Shown piece after piece: positions 1-6,024 of a stretch of 54,194 nt of DNA. Source of the DNA: Flavobacteriales bacterium (GTDB lineage Bacteria; Bacteroidota; Bacteroidia; CAIKAF01). The notes beneath the pieces are model-generated. The model searched no databases, had not been told where the DNA came from, and saw only the letters and a list, made by a program, of their open reading frames with translations. How positions within the stretch are numbered: the stretch's first letter is position 1; every line of letters starts with the position of its first letter. The stretch covers positions 1-54,194 of the forward strand of contig JAKRSD010000002.1 in NCBI GenBank assembly GCA_022402535.1. Direction: 5' to 3'. The translations under genes and the position numbers were made by a program.

Positions 1-19
1 AAGCAGACCTAATCTGTTT

Positions 20-799
20 TTAAAAATTTATCCGGTAATTTAGGGGTCTAAGACACAACAACAAATTCAACTTTGATTTTAGAACTGCCAAAGGTGTTTG
101 TAATTCGTGAGAAGCATTTTCAATAAATGTTTTTTGTTGGCTGTAAACAGAAATGTTTTTATCAATCAATTTTTGCAACGACTGATTGAGTTCCGCAAAT
201 TCTTCAATATCTGTCTTGTCAAATGAAACGGTTTGCTGTGTAGTCAAATCAAACGATTTTAATTTTTCAAGTGTGTTGCGGAAAGGTCGCCAAATTTGTT
301 TGGCTATCTGTCTGTTTAGAAGTATAAAACCGATAACCAACAATGCAAAAAATAAAAGTGTTACAACCGCAATCGCCAACATTGTTTCGTCTGTTTCTTC
401 TACATTGGTTTCAATTTGTAAATGATATAGTTTTCCGTTAATGTTGATGTAAGATGAAAGCACCCTAAAACGGTCAATCTCGTTATGTTCAACATATCTG
501 TTTTGTTTTGTAATAGTATAGGTGCTGTCAGGCTTTGGAACGGATAAATCGCTTGGTGTTAGTATGGTGCTGGGTTGTAACTTGTCCCAATTTTTAAGCA
601 AACTATTCAATTCGCTTTCTTCTATTTGAGCATTATTAAAACTGTATTCAATTCGTTCCTTAACAATATGGTTGTGTTCGTCCAATTCATCAAGCCAAAT
701 AAAATCTACTACCAAATAATAAACAGGTATGCTACACGCTAAAATAATTAAGGCATAAATCGTAAATGCTTTGAATGGTTTGTGTAACAGCTTGCTCAT
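20..799 (-). pseudogene. Sensor histidine kinase, broken after the H-box
   Basis: The product is the N-terminal part of a two-component sensor kinase. It has a membrane segment near residues 15-35, a periplasmic loop, a second membrane segment near 145-165, a HAMP-like linker, and a HisKA H-box (IENASHELQTPLAVLK) with the phospho-accepting His. About ten residues after the H-box the sequence loses family resemblance (CLRPLNYRINF) and stops. The rest of the dimerisation domain and the whole ATP-binding domain are missing, so it cannot phosphorylate as it stands. The start was chosen at 799 because its ATG overlaps the regulator's stop as ATGA. An in-frame ATG also exists at 808. Only 19 bases remain beyond the stop, so the cause (insertion, deletion, frameshift or assembly join) cannot be seen. 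Confidence 0.75.
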
Positions 800-1470
800 A
801 TTTCCCATTTGTAACCTGTTCCGTAAATTGTTTTTATGTAGTTGTTGTAACCCGCTTCTGTCAATTTCTTTTTCAGGTTTTTAACGTGAGCATAAACGAA
901 ATCGTGATTGTCAAACATATCGGCAATGTCGCCCGACAAATGCTCTGCCAATGCACTTTTTGAAATAACACGATTTTTGTTTCCGATGAAAAAAAGCAAT
1001 AAATCAATTTCCTTTTTTGTCAATGAAATTTCAATGTCATTCACTTTTACGGTCTTGCCTAACAAGTCAATCGTTATTTCGTTTTGTTGAACAATGTTTG
1101 AACTGTTGAATTGTTTCCTGCGAATAAGAGAATGTATTCTTGCCGAAAGTTCCGAATGATGAAAAGGCTTTGCCAAATAATCGTCCGCACCAATTTGTAA
1201 ACCTTTTACTTTGTCCTCAATAGAATTTTTTGCGGAAATAATAATTACTCCGTCTTGCTTGTTTTCTCGTTTTAACTGTTCTAACAAAGCAAGTCCGTTT
1301 CCGTCAGGAAGCATTAAATCCAATAAAATACAGTCGTATTGATAAACAGCAATTTTATCAGTTGCTTGATTGTAGTTTTCAGCAACTTCACACACATAGT
1401 TTTGTCCCGACAAGTATTTTACAATGTCCTGTGCAAGTTCTTTTTCATCTTCTACAATCAAGATTTTCAT
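796..1470 (-). CDS. OmpR/PhoB-family response regulator
   Basis: This 224-aa DNA-binding response regulator pairs with the downstream kinase. The receiver domain (about 1-115) shows the acidic pocket VEDE, phospho-acceptor Asp51 in LLDLMLP, and Lys101 in AKPF. The C-terminal part (about 125-224) is a winged helix of the Trans_reg_C type, ending in the usual IYGTGYKWEI wing. Its stop overlaps the kinase start (ATGA), which implies translational coupling. A TAAATTTG element at 1475-1482 lies only four bases before the ATG, so a leaderless transcript is possible, although no -33 element is evident. Base composition is AT-richer than in the core genes to the right. With its kinase truncated, the regulator may be an orphan or respond to another kinase. 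Confidence 0.92.
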   Translation of the reverse strand: MKILIVEDEKELAQDIVKYLSGQNYVCEVAENYNQATDKIAVYQYDCILLDLMLPDGNGLALLEQLKRENKQDGVIIISAKNSIEDKVKGLQIGADDYLAKPFHHSELSARIHSLIRRKQFNSSNIVQQNEITIDLLGKTVKVNDIEISLTKKEIDLLLFFIGNKNRVISKSALAEHLSGDIADMFDNHDFVYAHVKNLKKKLTEAGYNNYIKTIYGTGYKWEI

Positions 1471-1506
1471 TCGCCAAATTTACAATTTGAATTTTGAAGA
1501 AATTTA

Positions 1507-1735
1507 GAATGTCCGTAAAAGTTGCGTTGGGATTGGCTCTTTTGCAAACTTTGGGTGGTGGGTGGGCTTGGTGCGGTTTGCAAATGTGCCAATGTGCGTT
1601 GGCTTAAAACTTCATTTTTTTTGTGCGTTGGGAAAAATAAAAATACAAAAGTGTCGGTTGTCGTGTCGGAAATGTCGGTCGGTGTGTTGTCGGGTTTTGG
1701 TCGGTCGGTTGATGTCTGCACGGTGGTCGGTTAGG
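1507..1735. other. Strand-asymmetric G/T-rich non-coding stretch
   Basis: The plus strand here is strikingly rich in G and T and poor in C, with repeated TGTCGG/GTCGGT words at about 1652-1700. Open frames exist on both strands, but their translations are low-complexity and match no family I recognise, so I call it non-coding. It lies directly upstream of the response regulator and next to the first palindromic site. Its role is unknown. Confidence 0.5.
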
Positions 1736-1738
1736 GTT

Positions 1739-1922
1739 GCCGATAACGTTTGGCAAATAGACCCAGGCGGGCTTTTGAAACATCCTGTGACTATAAACCG
1801 AAATGTTTATTTAAAGATAAATGATTATTAGCGAGGTGCAAAATAAAACACGCGAAGCGGCAACTATTTCGCACCGAGCGATGTGCCGGTCCGCCAGCTT
1901 GGGTTTATTTGCTGTTATAGGT
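1739..1922. repeat. attC-like imperfect palindrome, site 1
   Basis: The outer ends read GCCGATAAC (1739-1747) and GTTATAGG (1914-1921), inverted relative to each other. The inner arms GCAAATAGACCCAGGC (1753-1768) and GCTTGGGTTTATTTGC (1897-1912) pair at 14 of 16 positions. A further 7-bp arm pair lies at 1892-1898/1925-1931. The site directly follows the stop of the 135-aa gene. Architecture (a long imperfect palindrome after a gene, with TAAC/GTTA-type ends) resembles integron attC sites, but the core GTTATAGG departs from canonical GTTRRRY. Confidence 0.5.
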
Positions 1923-1939
1923 TGGCTGGCGCACACAGT

Positions 1940-2347
1940 TTACGTCTCGCTGTCGAAATACAAGATAAATGTCCTGTACTTATTTATGTCTACGCCAGAA
2001 TGTTTTTTGTCTTGAAGGAATTTGAAACTGTTTAAGGCTTCTTTTTCAATGTCAATTGCCTGAATGAGGGAATTGAATTTCTCTAGACACTCTTTAGCGG
2101 TTCGGTCGCAATATGTTTTCCACGTCTCGTCAGCTTTTTTGTCTGCGGTGTCGTAGGATAACCAATATAATTCACAAGTCCCGTCCGGTAAAGCATATTG
2201 CACTTGTCCCCCTGAAATTGCTAAAGAGTTTTGTCGAGCCGTTTCAATAATGTCCGCAAAGTCCTGTTGTCTGCAACCAAATTCGTTACCGTTTAAAACG
2301 TCCTTGTCGAGGATTATTTTTGGAATATTTATTTTAAAGCCGTTCAA
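1940..2347 (-). CDS. Orphan ~135-aa cassette protein
   Basis: I do not recognise a domain. The protein-like segment begins near FKINIPKIILDKD and continues through FGCRQQDFADIIE, GGQVQYALPDGTCELYW and a Lys/Glu-rich helical C-terminus ending FILYFDSET. No ATG lies upstream in frame. A TTG at 2345-2347 is the most plausible start because codons further upstream translate the repeat itself (site 2 arm), whose sequence is shared with a non-coding site. The open frame formally extends to another TTG at 2473. The gene sits between inverted copies of a 22-bp sequence (1914-1935 and 2368-2389, 19 of 22 identical), like a cassette payload. The absence of signal peptide and membrane segments suggests a cytoplasmic protein. 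Confidence 0.6.
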   Translation of the reverse strand: MNGFKINIPKIILDKDVLNGNEFGCRQQDFADIIETARQNSLAISGGQVQYALPDGTCELYWLSYDTADKKADETWKTYCDRTAKECLEKFNSLIQAIDIEKEALNSFKFLQDKKHSGVDINKYRTFILYFDSET

Positions 2348-2380
2348 CTGTTTTTTATTTCGAGGTCTGTCCGCCAGCTT

Positions 2381-2517
2381 ACCTATAACGTTTTGGCGCT
2401 TGGCGCAGTGGCGGATTTCGGAGCACAAAACTGTCAATACACCACAAAAGTTGATGCGAAGTAGAATGTTCAATTAACCACGTCACCCGCCATTGAGCCA
2501 AACGCCTGTTATAAGCC
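2381..2517. repeat. attC-like imperfect palindrome, site 2
   Basis: The ends ACCTATAAC (2381-2389) and GTTATAAGCC (2508-2517) are inverted. The inner arms at 2395-2414 (GGCGCTTGGCGCAGTGGCGG) and 2487-2506 pair at 17 of 20 positions, with a loop of about 70 nt between them. The palindrome fills the whole gap between the Fic gene and the 135-aa gene. It shares end motif and layout with site 1, although the inner arms are unrelated in sequence, as is usual for attC sites. Confidence 0.55.
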
Positions 2518-2523
2518 GTTTTT

Positions 2524-3132
2524 TTATTTGTCATTCGTGTCAATTAGTTCAAAAATTAGTTCTGTTAAAGTCTGCAAGTCACTTTCAATAGTGCCTTTCA
2601 TATATCGTTCATAAACACTTTTGTTGTCTGGCGGGTTGAGATTAAGTGTCAAGCCTTTTTCTACTGCCAACAATCTTAAAAACTCTCTTTGTGTTCGTCC
2701 GTTTCCTTCTCTGAATGGGTGTAAATAGTTGACGTTATCTAGAATTTCAGCTAATTTCTCAGCTAGCAGTTGTTTGTTGTCTTTCGGAATTTTCTTGAAG
2801 TCGGCAATTAATTGGTTAATGTATCTAAAAGCGTTGTCAAAGTGCGAAGTAGGGAAGAACTGCTTACCGTCTTTGCTAATTTCAACTGTCCGCTTTTTGC
2901 CTGCCCAAACGTATATGTCTTGAAATAAATGTCTGTGAATTTCAAAAAGGCTGTCAATACTCTTGATTTTTATGGGGTTTTCGTAAAGTTCTTGAAGTCG
3001 TTTTGTTACTGCACCACTCTCAACGAAGAGCAATACATCGGGGTCCGTTATGTCCTGTAAATTTCTTAAAAGTCCTGTCTTCGGGTCCGTGTATGTGAAG
3101 TCAGGGTCTATGTATTTGTAGGAATTAGACAT
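2524..3132 (-). CDS. Fic/DOC-family protein (FicT-like AMPylating toxin)
   Basis: This 202-aa protein contains the Fic active-site signature HPFREGNGRTQREF with catalytic His138, Glu142 and Arg146. The flap region precedes it (about 85-95, VEISKDGKQFFP). Fic enzymes transfer AMP (or a related nucleotide moiety) from ATP to hydroxyl groups of target proteins. Bacterial stand-alone FicT toxins commonly modify topoisomerase subunits. The start is at 3132 (MSNSYKYID), which overlaps the antitoxin stop by 8 nt. The in-frame start at 3159 lies deep inside the antitoxin gene. The upstream gene supplies the inhibitory helix, making this a type II toxin-antitoxin pair. The target is inferred only from the family. 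Confidence 0.92.
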   Translation of the reverse strand: MSNSYKYIDPDFTYTDPKTGLLRNLQDITDPDVLLFVESGAVTKRLQELYENPIKIKSIDSLFEIHRHLFQDIYVWAGKKRTVEISKDGKQFFPTSHFDNAFRYINQLIADFKKIPKDNKQLLAEKLAEILDNVNYLHPFREGNGRTQREFLRLLAVEKGLTLNLNPPDNKSVYERYMKGTIESDLQTLTELIFELIDTNDK

Positions 3133-3346
3133 AGGCTTTTTGTTTGGCAAACGCCACAAGTTCTGTTAGAGATATTTTTCCTGTCACATAGTCCCTTATG
3201 ATTTCAATACCTTTTGGTGTCGGTTTAAAACCTTCAAACATATTGCTCCCCAAGGCATTTGCTGTGCTTTCTAAGGTTTTTAAGTCCGAAAACTTAACTC
3301 CCATTATTGTTAGATTGCTTCTGTCTATTTCTATCGTATTGAACAT
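3125..3346 (-). CDS. VbhA/FicA-type antitoxin
   Basis: This 73-aa protein carries the class I Fic inhibitory motif (S/T)xxxE(G/N) as S34-NMF-E38-G39. It is followed by the compact helical segment TPKGIEIIRDYVTGKISLTE, typical of Antitoxin_VbhA domains. In known pairs the Glu blocks ATP gamma-phosphate placement in the Fic active site. It lies immediately upstream of and overlaps the Fic gene by 8 nt, so the two are translationally coupled. A TAAATTTG -7 box is at 3369-3376. The assignment rests on motif plus context. Confidence 0.85.
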   Translation of the reverse strand: MFNTIEIDRSNLTIMGVKFSDLKTLESTANALGSNMFEGFKPTPKGIEIIRDYVTGKISLTELVAFAKQKAYV

Positions 3347-3368
3347 CTTTTTCAGTCTTAAATGTTTT

Positions 3369-3376
3369 CAAATTTA
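3369..3376 (-). promoter_or_regulatory. Candidate -7 box of the Fic toxin-antitoxin operon
   Basis: The minus strand reads TAAATTTG, a full match to the Bacteroidetes -7 consensus TAnnTTTG, 22 nt upstream of the antitoxin ATG. No TTTG sits at the ideal distance, since the nearest is about 14 nt upstream. The cassette would therefore carry its own promoter. Confidence 0.45.
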
Positions 3377-3420
3377 CAAAAAAGTTAGGTCAAATCGCTT
3401 GTTTTCTGTCGCTTTAAAAT

Positions 3421-3430
3421 GGCTTATAAC
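3421..3430. repeat. Half-site GGCTTATAAC at the array boundary
   Basis: On the minus strand it reads GTTATAAGCC followed by ATTTT. This is identical over the first 10 bases to the right end of site 2 (2508-2517, then GTTTT) and inverted to it. No matching partner arm follows to the right, so this looks like the simple boundary of the cassette array, comparable in position to an integron attI site. The following 200 bases to 3640 contain no gene I can support. They include a 9-bp inverted repeat (3532-3540 with 3589-3597). Confidence 0.4.
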
Positions 3431-3644
3431 TTGTTTATATGCGCTATAAAGTTTCGCTTATCTCTCCATTTTTGGGTGGATTGGCGCAACAGGGATTCCT
3501 TTTATTTAGTTTTCTGTGGGTATCAAATTTAACCGACCGGACTCATATTTGCAACATATTGTAACCATACATTTGCTGCTGTAAAATCCCGGTCGGTGAA
3601 AACACCTACCGGGGGCAACGACTTCCCATCCGTTATTCCCCATA

Positions 3645-3674
3645 AAAAAGCCCCCTGCAAGCAGGAGGCTTTTC
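3645..3674 (-). terminator. Rho-independent terminator of the glycine-rich T9SS gene
   Basis: A GC-rich stem (3650-3658 with 3661-3669, one mismatch) is extended by AAAA/TTTT pairs and followed on the minus strand by a U-run. It lies about 25 nt after the stop of the gene ending at 3700. Confidence 0.85.
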
Positions 3675-3699
3675 GTTATGTAAAGCAATAAACTTTGGG

Positions 3700-5814
3700 T
3701 TATTGTTTAATCAGTTTTTGTGAGTAAATCCCTTCGGTACCTTTAATTTCTAAATAGTAAATGCCGTTGGCCAGGTGATCTACCGGAATGGTCAATAATC
3801 CCTGTTCTGAAGGTAAACGGCGTTTTTCGATCACTCTTCCGTACGAGTCGGTAAGGGTCAGTAACGGCTGCTCCGCAAAGTTTTTGTTGAACTGAATGGT
3901 AATCTGCTGGGTCATGGGATTGGGATATACCAAAATGTTTTCGGCAAATAATTCTTCAATTCCCGCACAGGCTTCCGCCGAAGTAACCGTGAATGCCTGA
4001 TACACCGGCGCCGACCATCCGCAGCAGGCATCTTTCACCCGCAAACGAACCGCATAATTGCCTTGTGTGGTAAGCGGCGTAGAAACACCCGGATTCTGCT
4101 GGTTTGAGCTGTATACAATATTGGCCACGGTGCCCGAATATACAATCCAGTCGTATTCCGTTCCCGTAGTGGCTGTACCCAGGTTTACTCCATATCCTTC
4201 GCACAAAGCCGCCGGAATGGTATTGATTACTGCTGCCGGTCTGTCCTCCGTAATTTGAATGAAATCAGAGGCATTGGTGGTTTGGTCAGTCAAAGCATAC
4301 GAACCGGTTTGGGTAAACATAATGATGGCATTGTTGCTCGCATTCGTGAATGAAGAAGTGGTAGGTCCGGTATTGTTCAGATACTGCGCTCCGGAGGGAA
4401 GTCCCCAGGTTCCGGTGAATTTGGTAATGTTGATTTCGGAACGGGTACAGGCTGCATTGAAGAAATCCACGCCAAACTCGGTTCCGCTGGCTACGGTAGA
4501 ACCGTTGATATTGATGGCAGCCGGAGAAACGGCCACAACTCCTTCGGATAATCCGTTGGCTCCGTCGCGTCCGCGTCCGCCGTTACCGCCGTTACCGCCA
4601 TTACCGCCTAAACCGCCTGTGTAGTTAACTCCACAACGATTTCCGGTTTGTCCTAAGCTGCCTTGCGCGCCGGCTGAGCCTGCCTGTCCGTCGGAACCGT
4701 TTCCGCCCAGTCCGGCATTACCTGAAATTAATTCGCTGTTGTTCACGTCGCCTGAGCTGTTTCCGGCAATGTAGATGGCAAAAGAACCGCCGCCGCCAAA
4801 GCCGCCGTTTCCGCCTAATCCACCTGCACCGCCTGCGCCACCTGCACCACCGTTTCCGGCCGTTCCAGAACTTCCGCAGCTACAGGTACAACAGGTTCCG
4901 CGTGCAGCACCGCCGCCGCCGCCACCGCCGCCGCCGCCGTTTCCGGCTGAGCCATTATCTGCGGTGAACAAAGGAGTGAAATAATCGCCGGATGCGGCCG
5001 GTGCGGCTGGTCTGTCGCCGGGTGTAAATCCGGCTCCGACAGAACCGTCGGTTCCGTTTCCGCCATTTCCGCCGTTAGCGGGTACTTTATCGCAATTGAA
5101 AATGTTGCAACCTCCACTGGTTCCGGCGGCTCCGGCTGTACCCCCGGCAATACCGGTAGTTCCTGTTCCACCGGCAGTTCCGGCGTTTCCGTTGCTGCAA
5201 TCGTTTCCATGGTTTCCGCCGTTTCCGCCGCTTCCGCCGGCATTACCGCCGCCGGTGCCGGTTACAGGGGCTGCATTGGCTCCGTCGCTACCGTTTCCTG
5301 TCGTAATTTTCACGCGGGAAATGAGCATATTTTGTGCGTTTCTGGCCCAAATGCCATACACCGAACGGCCTACTCCGGAGGGAGTCTGCCCGCTTGCATT
5401 GGCCGTTAAAATGGTTAAGTCTAAGATTTTCCAGTTGCTTACCGAATCGGCTTTAAAGCCGATTACATGCTCAATATCCGAGCTGATGCTTTCAAATCCT
5501 GACATGGAGATTTGGGTAACTGCATTGGTTTTTTTAATCCATTTGCCCGCCGAAAGCACATAGGCACCTTCAATAATCATATTATCCTGCAGGTGCAGCA
5601 CGGTGTCTACCTGGTAATTTCCTGCCAGACAACGAATAATGTTGCGTTGCGGGGTGGAGTTAATTACCGCATACTCTAAGGATACGGGGGCATTTTGGGT
5701 TCCTTCCGTTCCGGTTCCCGTAGGGGATACATACCAGATACTGCAAGGATTTTGGGCTATTCCGTTCAAAGTAAACAGAATGGCCATTAAAAAAAAGGAT
5801 ACACTTCTCTTCAT
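3700..5814 (-). CDS. Glycine-rich T9SS-exported surface protein (short paralogue)
   Basis: This 704-aa protein has a signal peptide (MKRSVSFFLMAILF, cleaved near AQ). A beta-helix-like head domain spans about 22-175 (MIIEGAY, YGIWARN, ISRVKITT). A very glycine-rich tract of GGNGG/GGxG repeats spans about 180-420 and includes a Cys cluster (TCCTCSC). A PKD/Ig-like module contains CCGWS near 597. The protein ends in a type A T9SS sorting domain (VYPNP near 628, C-terminal KLIKQ). It is therefore predicted to be exported across both membranes and anchored or released at the surface. Start 5814 was preferred to 5841 because the -7 box (5839-5846) overlaps the latter. Domain order and many motifs match the 49120-53976 protein, so the two are paralogues. 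Function (adhesin, matrix or sheath component) is inferred only. Confidence 0.85.
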   Translation of the reverse strand: MKRSVSFFLMAILFTLNGIAQNPCSIWYVSPTGTGTEGTQNAPVSLEYAVINSTPQRNIIRCLAGNYQVDTVLHLQDNMIIEGAYVLSAGKWIKKTNAVTQISMSGFESISSDIEHVIGFKADSVSNWKILDLTILTANASGQTPSGVGRSVYGIWARNAQNMLISRVKITTGNGSDGANAAPVTGTGGGNAGGSGGNGGNHGNDCSNGNAGTAGGTGTTGIAGGTAGAAGTSGGCNIFNCDKVPANGGNGGNGTDGSVGAGFTPGDRPAAPAASGDYFTPLFTADNGSAGNGGGGGGGGGGAARGTCCTCSCGSSGTAGNGGAGGAGGAGGLGGNGGFGGGGSFAIYIAGNSSGDVNNSELISGNAGLGGNGSDGQAGSAGAQGSLGQTGNRCGVNYTGGLGGNGGNGGNGGRGRDGANGLSEGVVAVSPAAININGSTVASGTEFGVDFFNAACTRSEINITKFTGTWGLPSGAQYLNNTGPTTSSFTNASNNAIIMFTQTGSYALTDQTTNASDFIQITEDRPAAVINTIPAALCEGYGVNLGTATTGTEYDWIVYSGTVANIVYSSNQQNPGVSTPLTTQGNYAVRLRVKDACCGWSAPVYQAFTVTSAEACAGIEELFAENILVYPNPMTQQITIQFNKNFAEQPLLTLTDSYGRVIEKRRLPSEQGLLTIPVDHLANGIYYLEIKGTEGIYSQKLIKQ
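4560..5275 (-). repeat. Coding repeat: GGN/GGX glycine-rich tract
   Basis: Degenerate 6-9 bp units encode Gly-Gly-Asn, Gly-Gly-Ala and Gly-Ser/Thr-Gly, including a run of about ten consecutive Gly at roughly 4913-4942. The antisense strand reads as Pro-rich open frames (PPLPPLPP), which are shadows. The tract is prone to slippage and recombination. Confidence 0.85.
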
Positions 5815-5838
5815 GGTGTTAAATTGATTGATTTCAGA

Positions 5839-5846
5839 CAAATCTA
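5839..5846 (-). promoter_or_regulatory. Candidate -7 box for the glycine-rich T9SS gene
   Basis: The minus strand reads TAGATTTG, with TTG 23 nt further upstream (5870-5872), slightly longer than the usual spacing. It lies 25 nt before the chosen ATG at 5814. Confidence 0.5.
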
Positions 5847-6024
5847 TTGATTTTTGTCCGAAATATCAGCAACCGGAGGGTGTTAAAACCGAGGATTTAA
5901 TCGGGTTTTAATCCCATGCTAAAATCAAAGCCATTCATTTTGTTTACTTTTTTACAAAGTTTTATGTTGATTTTTTAAACTAAATCAGGGGATTCTTGTT
6001 TAGGCTTAGTCTTATATTTAAACC

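Follow-up and report, generated by a model that had tools for sequence, protein, structure and literature searches.

Unrelated small genes on one strand of a contig from a Flavobacteriales bacterium are each followed by a long imperfect palindrome. This raises the question of whether they are cassettes of a gene-capture system or genes that happen to lie beside mobile repeats. The window is the whole stretch of DNA that was analysed (54,194 nucleotides), which is also the whole of contig C2 of its genome. In our reading, with a probability of about 0.9, two cassettes in it form a small array belonging to a gene-capture system that resembles the integron and is widespread among Bacteroidia.

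The array and its palindromic sites

The features of the array are listed in Table 1. The Fic protein of the first cassette matches the candidate defence family PDC-S04, and sedentary integrons commonly carry toxin-antitoxin cassettes. The comparison of the orphan gene with Pfam and PADLOC returned no family match. The sequence following site 1 is probably a third cassette, as its start resembles the starts of other cassettes. No integrase is present on the contig; the integrase of the same genome is located on contig C32. The gene directly upstream of the attI-like site (3700-5841) encodes a repeat-rich surface protein that carries a Por secretion tail, and it contains 9-nt repeats.

Table 1. 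Features of the array, in the order in which they are read on the minus strand; a slash marks a junction.
Feature	Positions	Strand	Details
Two-cassette array: attI-like site, VbhA/Fic cassette, orphan-gene cassette	1744-3514	-	
attI-like site, integrase not adjoining	3427-3514	-	junction ..ATATAAACAA/GTTA at 3430
Cassette 1, from start GTTATAAGCC to end of own attC-like site	2389-3430	-	copies in G004, G499, G053
VbhA-like antitoxin gene, 73 aa	3125-3346	-	ORF; Pfam PF18495 VbhA, E 1.5e-7
Fic-domain (AMP-transferase) toxin gene, 202 aa	2524-3132	-	Pfam PF02661 Fic, E 2.2e-16
Left end of site 2 (GGCTTATAAC)	2508-2517	-	mirrors own cassette start 3421-3430
attC-like site 2, TATAAC-arm-loop-arm-AAAACGTTA	2386-2514	-	
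Cassette 2, from start GTTATAGGTAAGC to end of site 1	1748-2389	-	
Orphan gene, 135 aa, probable TTG start	1940-2347	-	
attC-like site 1, second site family, longer loop	about 1744-1919	-	detector match and recurrence
Probable third cassette, start GTTATCGGCAACCC, response regulator and sensor-kinase genes	1-1747	-	cut by contig end

A palindrome detector, defined as [TC]AAC and GTT separated by 45-240 bases with complementary arms, was applied to positions 1-6000 of the window. Exactly two matches were obtained on the minus strand, corresponding to sites 1 and 2, and site 2, being a palindrome, was detected on the plus strand too; the same detector gave zero matches in shuffled sequence. The palindromes with TATAAC...GTTAT ends that had been described in the original prediction are present, and the arms noted there lie inside the two sites, the loops of which differ. 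The proposed core GTTATARG was not upheld, since it had 5 matches against 2.8 expected, which is insignificant alone, and it proved to be an artefact of looking at two cassettes only. The core is rather GTT[AG] with about five further bases that are specific to the cassette, and only 8 of 91 cores fit GTTRRRY, in agreement with the earlier remark that the canonical core is missing.

Site 2 recurs in some 80 of the 247 genomes of the class that were searched, at about 70-99% identity and with borders at the cores. The matches extend to other genera and families of the class (up to 98%), and further ones were found in its own genome at 90%, 80% and weaker. Site 1 recurs in at least seven of the 247 genomes, with relatives in G432 (84%), G439, G406, G055, G517, G492 and G458. 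For the site 2 family, RNAalifold predicted 21 pairs, 11 of them with double changes. A covariance model built from site 2 and its relatives (12 sites, 26 pairs) revealed arrays of four or five sites on a single strand at three loci (L029, L030 and L035), mostly spaced by 0.7-2.6 kb. With a broader model, sites were identified in 180 of the 247 genomes (E <= 1e-6), many of them between unrelated same-strand genes, as had been anticipated. The cassettes contain one or two ORFs on the strand of the site, nearly all stopping just before it, and further payloads included cation efflux, PIN-like domain and DUF2130 genes as well as many orphans.

Palindromes that are foldable and located just behind stop codons could also belong to ordinary operons, as transcription terminators or RNA elements. 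We consider this highly improbable. No Rfam match was found at the sites, and such a reading leaves the conserved GTT/AAC ends and the attI junctions unaccounted for. The single-strand folding that had been suggested as a check points in the same direction: with DNA parameters, the bottom, untranscribed strand was lower in energy at 73 of 91 array sites and at 60 of 65 reconstructed circle junctions. The bottom strand was likewise more stable for the two attC sites of R388 under the same folding. The predicted folds mostly carried an unpaired spacer of 1-3 bases on the left and 5-7 on the right. The folded bottom strand may be the substrate of recombination.

Cassettes as units of exchange

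Positions 3430-2388 of the window, the Fic cassette, are 94% identical over 1044 bases to G004:C6:172-1214, the first base of the match lying exactly at GTTATAAGCC and the last at AAAACGT, with unrelated flanks on both sides. The cassette was also found in G499 (88%) and G053 (85%) with the same start point, the G053 copy having another attC-like site in front of it (..CGCCAAGCCGCAAAAC/GTTATAAGCC). It is thus an exact exchanged unit in four genomes, including its own, which bears out the expectation that gene and palindrome move together. The homology breaks at GT(T), a position consistent with putative recombination by the integrase at G^TT.

When an integron cassette is circular, its start is joined to the end of its own site. 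Because a circle places the two side by side and both must pair, the ~14 bases that open a cassette are expected to mirror those preceding its own palindrome. This was observed in 65 cassettes, in which the bases after GTT were compared with the reverse complement of those preceding their own AAC. The match was 0.85-0.91 at positions 4-9, fell to 0.03 at position 11, which represents a fixed mismatch, and returned to 0.72-0.85 at positions 12-14. Shuffled partners gave a flat profile, with 0.27-0.51 at positions 4-9 and 0.31-0.39 at positions 12-14. In a first set of 58 cassettes the mean match was 5.69 of 8, as compared to a maximum of 3.28 among 10,000 shuffles and a mean of 2.66 when the end of the previous site was used instead. 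Both cassettes of the window follow this pattern: the start of cassette 1 and the left end of site 2 form an inverted repeat (I12; 15 nt, 93%), and so do positions 1914-1935 and 2368-2389 in cassette 2 (22 nt, 86%).

These observations bear on the second possibility raised in the original prediction, namely that the palindromes are MITE- or REP-like mobile repeats that insert beside genes while the genes themselves are not exchanged. The site alone does occur in many genomes with differing neighbouring sequence, its identity reaching 98-99%, as such repeats would. Against this, gene and site travel together as units with exact borders, the variable bases at the cassette start match the cassette's own end, and the sites lie on one side of the integrase, as described below; we regard the mobile-repeat reading as very unlikely.

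Chimeric arms were seen at some sites (those of L010, L007 and L016; L219 and L220), and one Fic gene was found with three arm types and a conserved loop. Excision at G^TT alone fails to account for these chimeric arms or for the three arm types, which count against the proposed mechanism; they suggest that recombination may also take place inside the palindromes.

The integrase and the attI-like sites

A search with the IntI model TIGR02249 revealed that many relatives carry a tyrosine recombinase of ~370 aa. It matches both ends of the model, leaves about positions 180-238 unmatched and scores under the cut-off. When 84,980 species genomes were searched with the alignment of the integrase, the named hosts included Flavobacterium enshiense, Algibacter onchidii, Rufibacter, Algoriphagus, Winogradskyella and Zunongwangia. 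A recombinase near the arrays had been predicted, and the distribution of sites around the integrase loci agrees with it: the 230 kb lying downstream contain 81 same-strand sites, as compared to 4 in the 410 kb lying upstream. Counted by locus, 19 of the 27 with at least 2.5 kb of downstream sequence had a same-strand site there, and 4 of 50 had one upstream; in L029 the integrase lies just upstream of the array. Many integrase contigs break off no more than a few hundred bases from the stop codon of the gene, which is expected where repeats break the assembly. The terminator, RNA and mobile-repeat readings were rejected, being contradicted by the exact units, the one-sided sites and the own-end covariation.

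The half-site GTTATAAGCC (3421-3430), which had been noted as a lone half-site placed as attI would be, turned out to be the junction of an 88-base attI-like repeat at 3427-3514. The 3' 64 bases of this repeat are 88% identical to G000:C32:18359-18422, directly behind the integrase stop in the same genome. In many genera attI is located ~100 nt past the integrase stop and ends in TATAAACAA/GTTA or near variants, with the motif TATA[AT]AC[AT]AGTT behind the integrases of several of them; attI adjoins the integrase gene, as in integrons. The genome under study contains seven attI copies on six contigs (C2, C15, C18, C20, C23 and C32), only one of them with an integrase. Four of the seven have a matching own end 0.9-3.5 kb downstream; for the copy in the window this is site 2, 914 nt behind. 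No integrase remnants were found upstream of the satellite copies in this genome, and we infer that the copies lacking an integrase would be used in trans.

Two attI copies on C18 have ~170 nt of sequence in common. An inverted repeat, GCACATTTG..CAAAAGAGC, was observed at a distance of 38-172 nt behind a number of cassette starts or attI sites (window 1534-1601; L071 12760; L083 8727; L209, minus strand, 6492; L028 5836), and it is perhaps a leader element of cassettes. A match to the Rfam DUF805 RNA (RF03081) occupies a similar place at L030 1104-1172.

Across the 247 genomes, sites were present in 180 and the integrase in 127. Both occurred in 120, the integrase only in 7, sites only in 60 and neither in 60 (Fisher p 4e-16, kinship ignored). 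As 60 of the 120 genomes without the integrase hold sites, integrase loss, assembly gaps or transfer have to be invoked. The same 60 genomes, in which the integrase family went undetected, could be read to mean that the integrase is a bystander and that another recombinase, such as XerC/XerD, handles the sites. This seems very improbable to us in view of the co-occurrence of integrase and sites and of the position and orientation of attI directly behind the integrase in many genera. Canonical IntI above the curated cut-off was detected in 84 of 296 genomes sampled from the phylum, nearly all outside the class in question (loci L188-L199), with one genome of the class, G093, listed. The Bacteroidia system is therefore not run by canonical IntI.

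Copies were also found on plasmids of Chryseobacterium and Rufibacter tibetensis, the array of the latter being plasmid-borne, and the whole cassette region of the window had no match among plasmids. A group II intron reverse transcriptase is located inside the cassette region of the Chryseobacterium SNU WT5 plasmid (L185 21738-23054); attC sites are known targets of group IIC introns.

Relation to integrons and Xer recombinases

Exact exchange, the recombinase and attI together support the cassette-exchange system of a distinct type that had been proposed for this locus, and the best reading is an integron variant with a XerA-like integrase. By the mechanism we propose, the tyrosine recombinase, here that on G000:C32, would excise gene cassettes as circles through recombination of folded single-stranded attC-like sites, presumably cutting at or next to G^TT, and the circles would insert at attI or at another site. 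The likeness to chromosomal (sedentary) integrons such as the Vibrio superintegron, and to the class 1 integron of R388, comprises a tyrosine recombinase with attI beside its gene, tandem same-strand cassettes with mostly one ORF, imperfect palindromes with AAC...GTT ends, pairing of the cassette start with its own end, better predicted folding of the bottom strand, and toxin-antitoxin cassettes. Unlike integrons, the Bacteroidia integrase lacks the IntI additional domain and carries an extra N-terminal region, it is codirectional with the array and has attI behind its stop, and further attI copies without an integrase occur in one genome. The R box is GTT[AG] with about five cassette-specific bases, the fixed mismatch and some three more pairs, as opposed to GTTRRRY. 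The array in the window, with no integrase on its contig, resembles CALIN (attC clusters without an integrase); it differs in being headed by an attI-like site, in having the integrase on another contig, and in sites that depart from the published attC core consensus.

The interval from KGxKDR to HxxRH measured 57-63 residues in 66 family members against 100 in 12 IntI proteins; the additional domain, around patch III, is thus absent in all 66. The interval was 56-67 in 23 of 25 XerA-like proteins and 100 in the other two, and 65-66 in XerC/D; L174 and L181 from the XerA-like set were placed inside the IntI clade. Most family members have the extra N-terminal region, ~80-100 aa with a WS..CW motif, while XerA-like relatives align to the integrase core only. 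The top NCBIfam match was XerA (NF040815; two proteins with 233-235 bits and three with 208-219, at a cut-off of 220). The AlphaFold model (pLDDT 87) had XerA 5hxy and IntI4 2a3v as its best PDB fold matches. XerA/archaeal Xer is the closest curated family and the best solved match, by sequence and by fold. Characterised Xer proteins act at dif-like sites, where they resolve dimers, and are not known to be associated with cassette arrays.

One alternative is that the system is an ordinary integron by descent, with a divergent IntI that has shed its additional domain and sites that are ordinary attC. The shared architecture, the TIGR02249 match in both halves of the protein and the IntI4 fold match would agree with this, as would a tree with IntI and the family in one clade, which was not rejected (p-AU 0.11). 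The missing domain in 66 of 66 proteins, the XerA match, the scarcity of GTTRRRY cores and an integrase that points into the array all speak against it. The best tree also places the family beside the XerA-like proteins, apart from the fully supported IntI clade, with weak support of 50-76%. We consider common descent rather unlikely, and it is a matter of ancestry more than of mechanism. An integrase origin independent of IntI is possible. We tentatively put forward, at somewhat less than even odds, that a XerA-like recombinase independently gained attC-type single-strand recombination without the additional domain, with a longer cassette-specific R box and a fixed mismatch, and that it acts in trans on several attI platforms of a single genome.

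The additional domain was the criterion by which integrases were chosen in an early survey (PMC2426708), and IntI activity has been reported to require it (Messier and Roy, 2001, as cited in PMC2426708 and PMC9668308). For Bacteroidetes, IntegronFinder 2.0 described only In0 at first and then a complete integron in Salinibacter, besides Chlorobi and Ignavibacteriae (PMC9024848). The present system would have escaped earlier surveys, since integron integrases are recognised by a domain that its recombinase lacks. No prior description of it was found in the searchable literature; preprints or closed journals may hold one.

If the integrase works without the additional domain, recombination of folded sites has another solution, and the origin of integrons is made testable. 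It would also become possible to search an extensive network of gene sharing in a very common bacterial class, and with it a map of mobile toxin-antitoxin, efflux and orphan genes would be gained.
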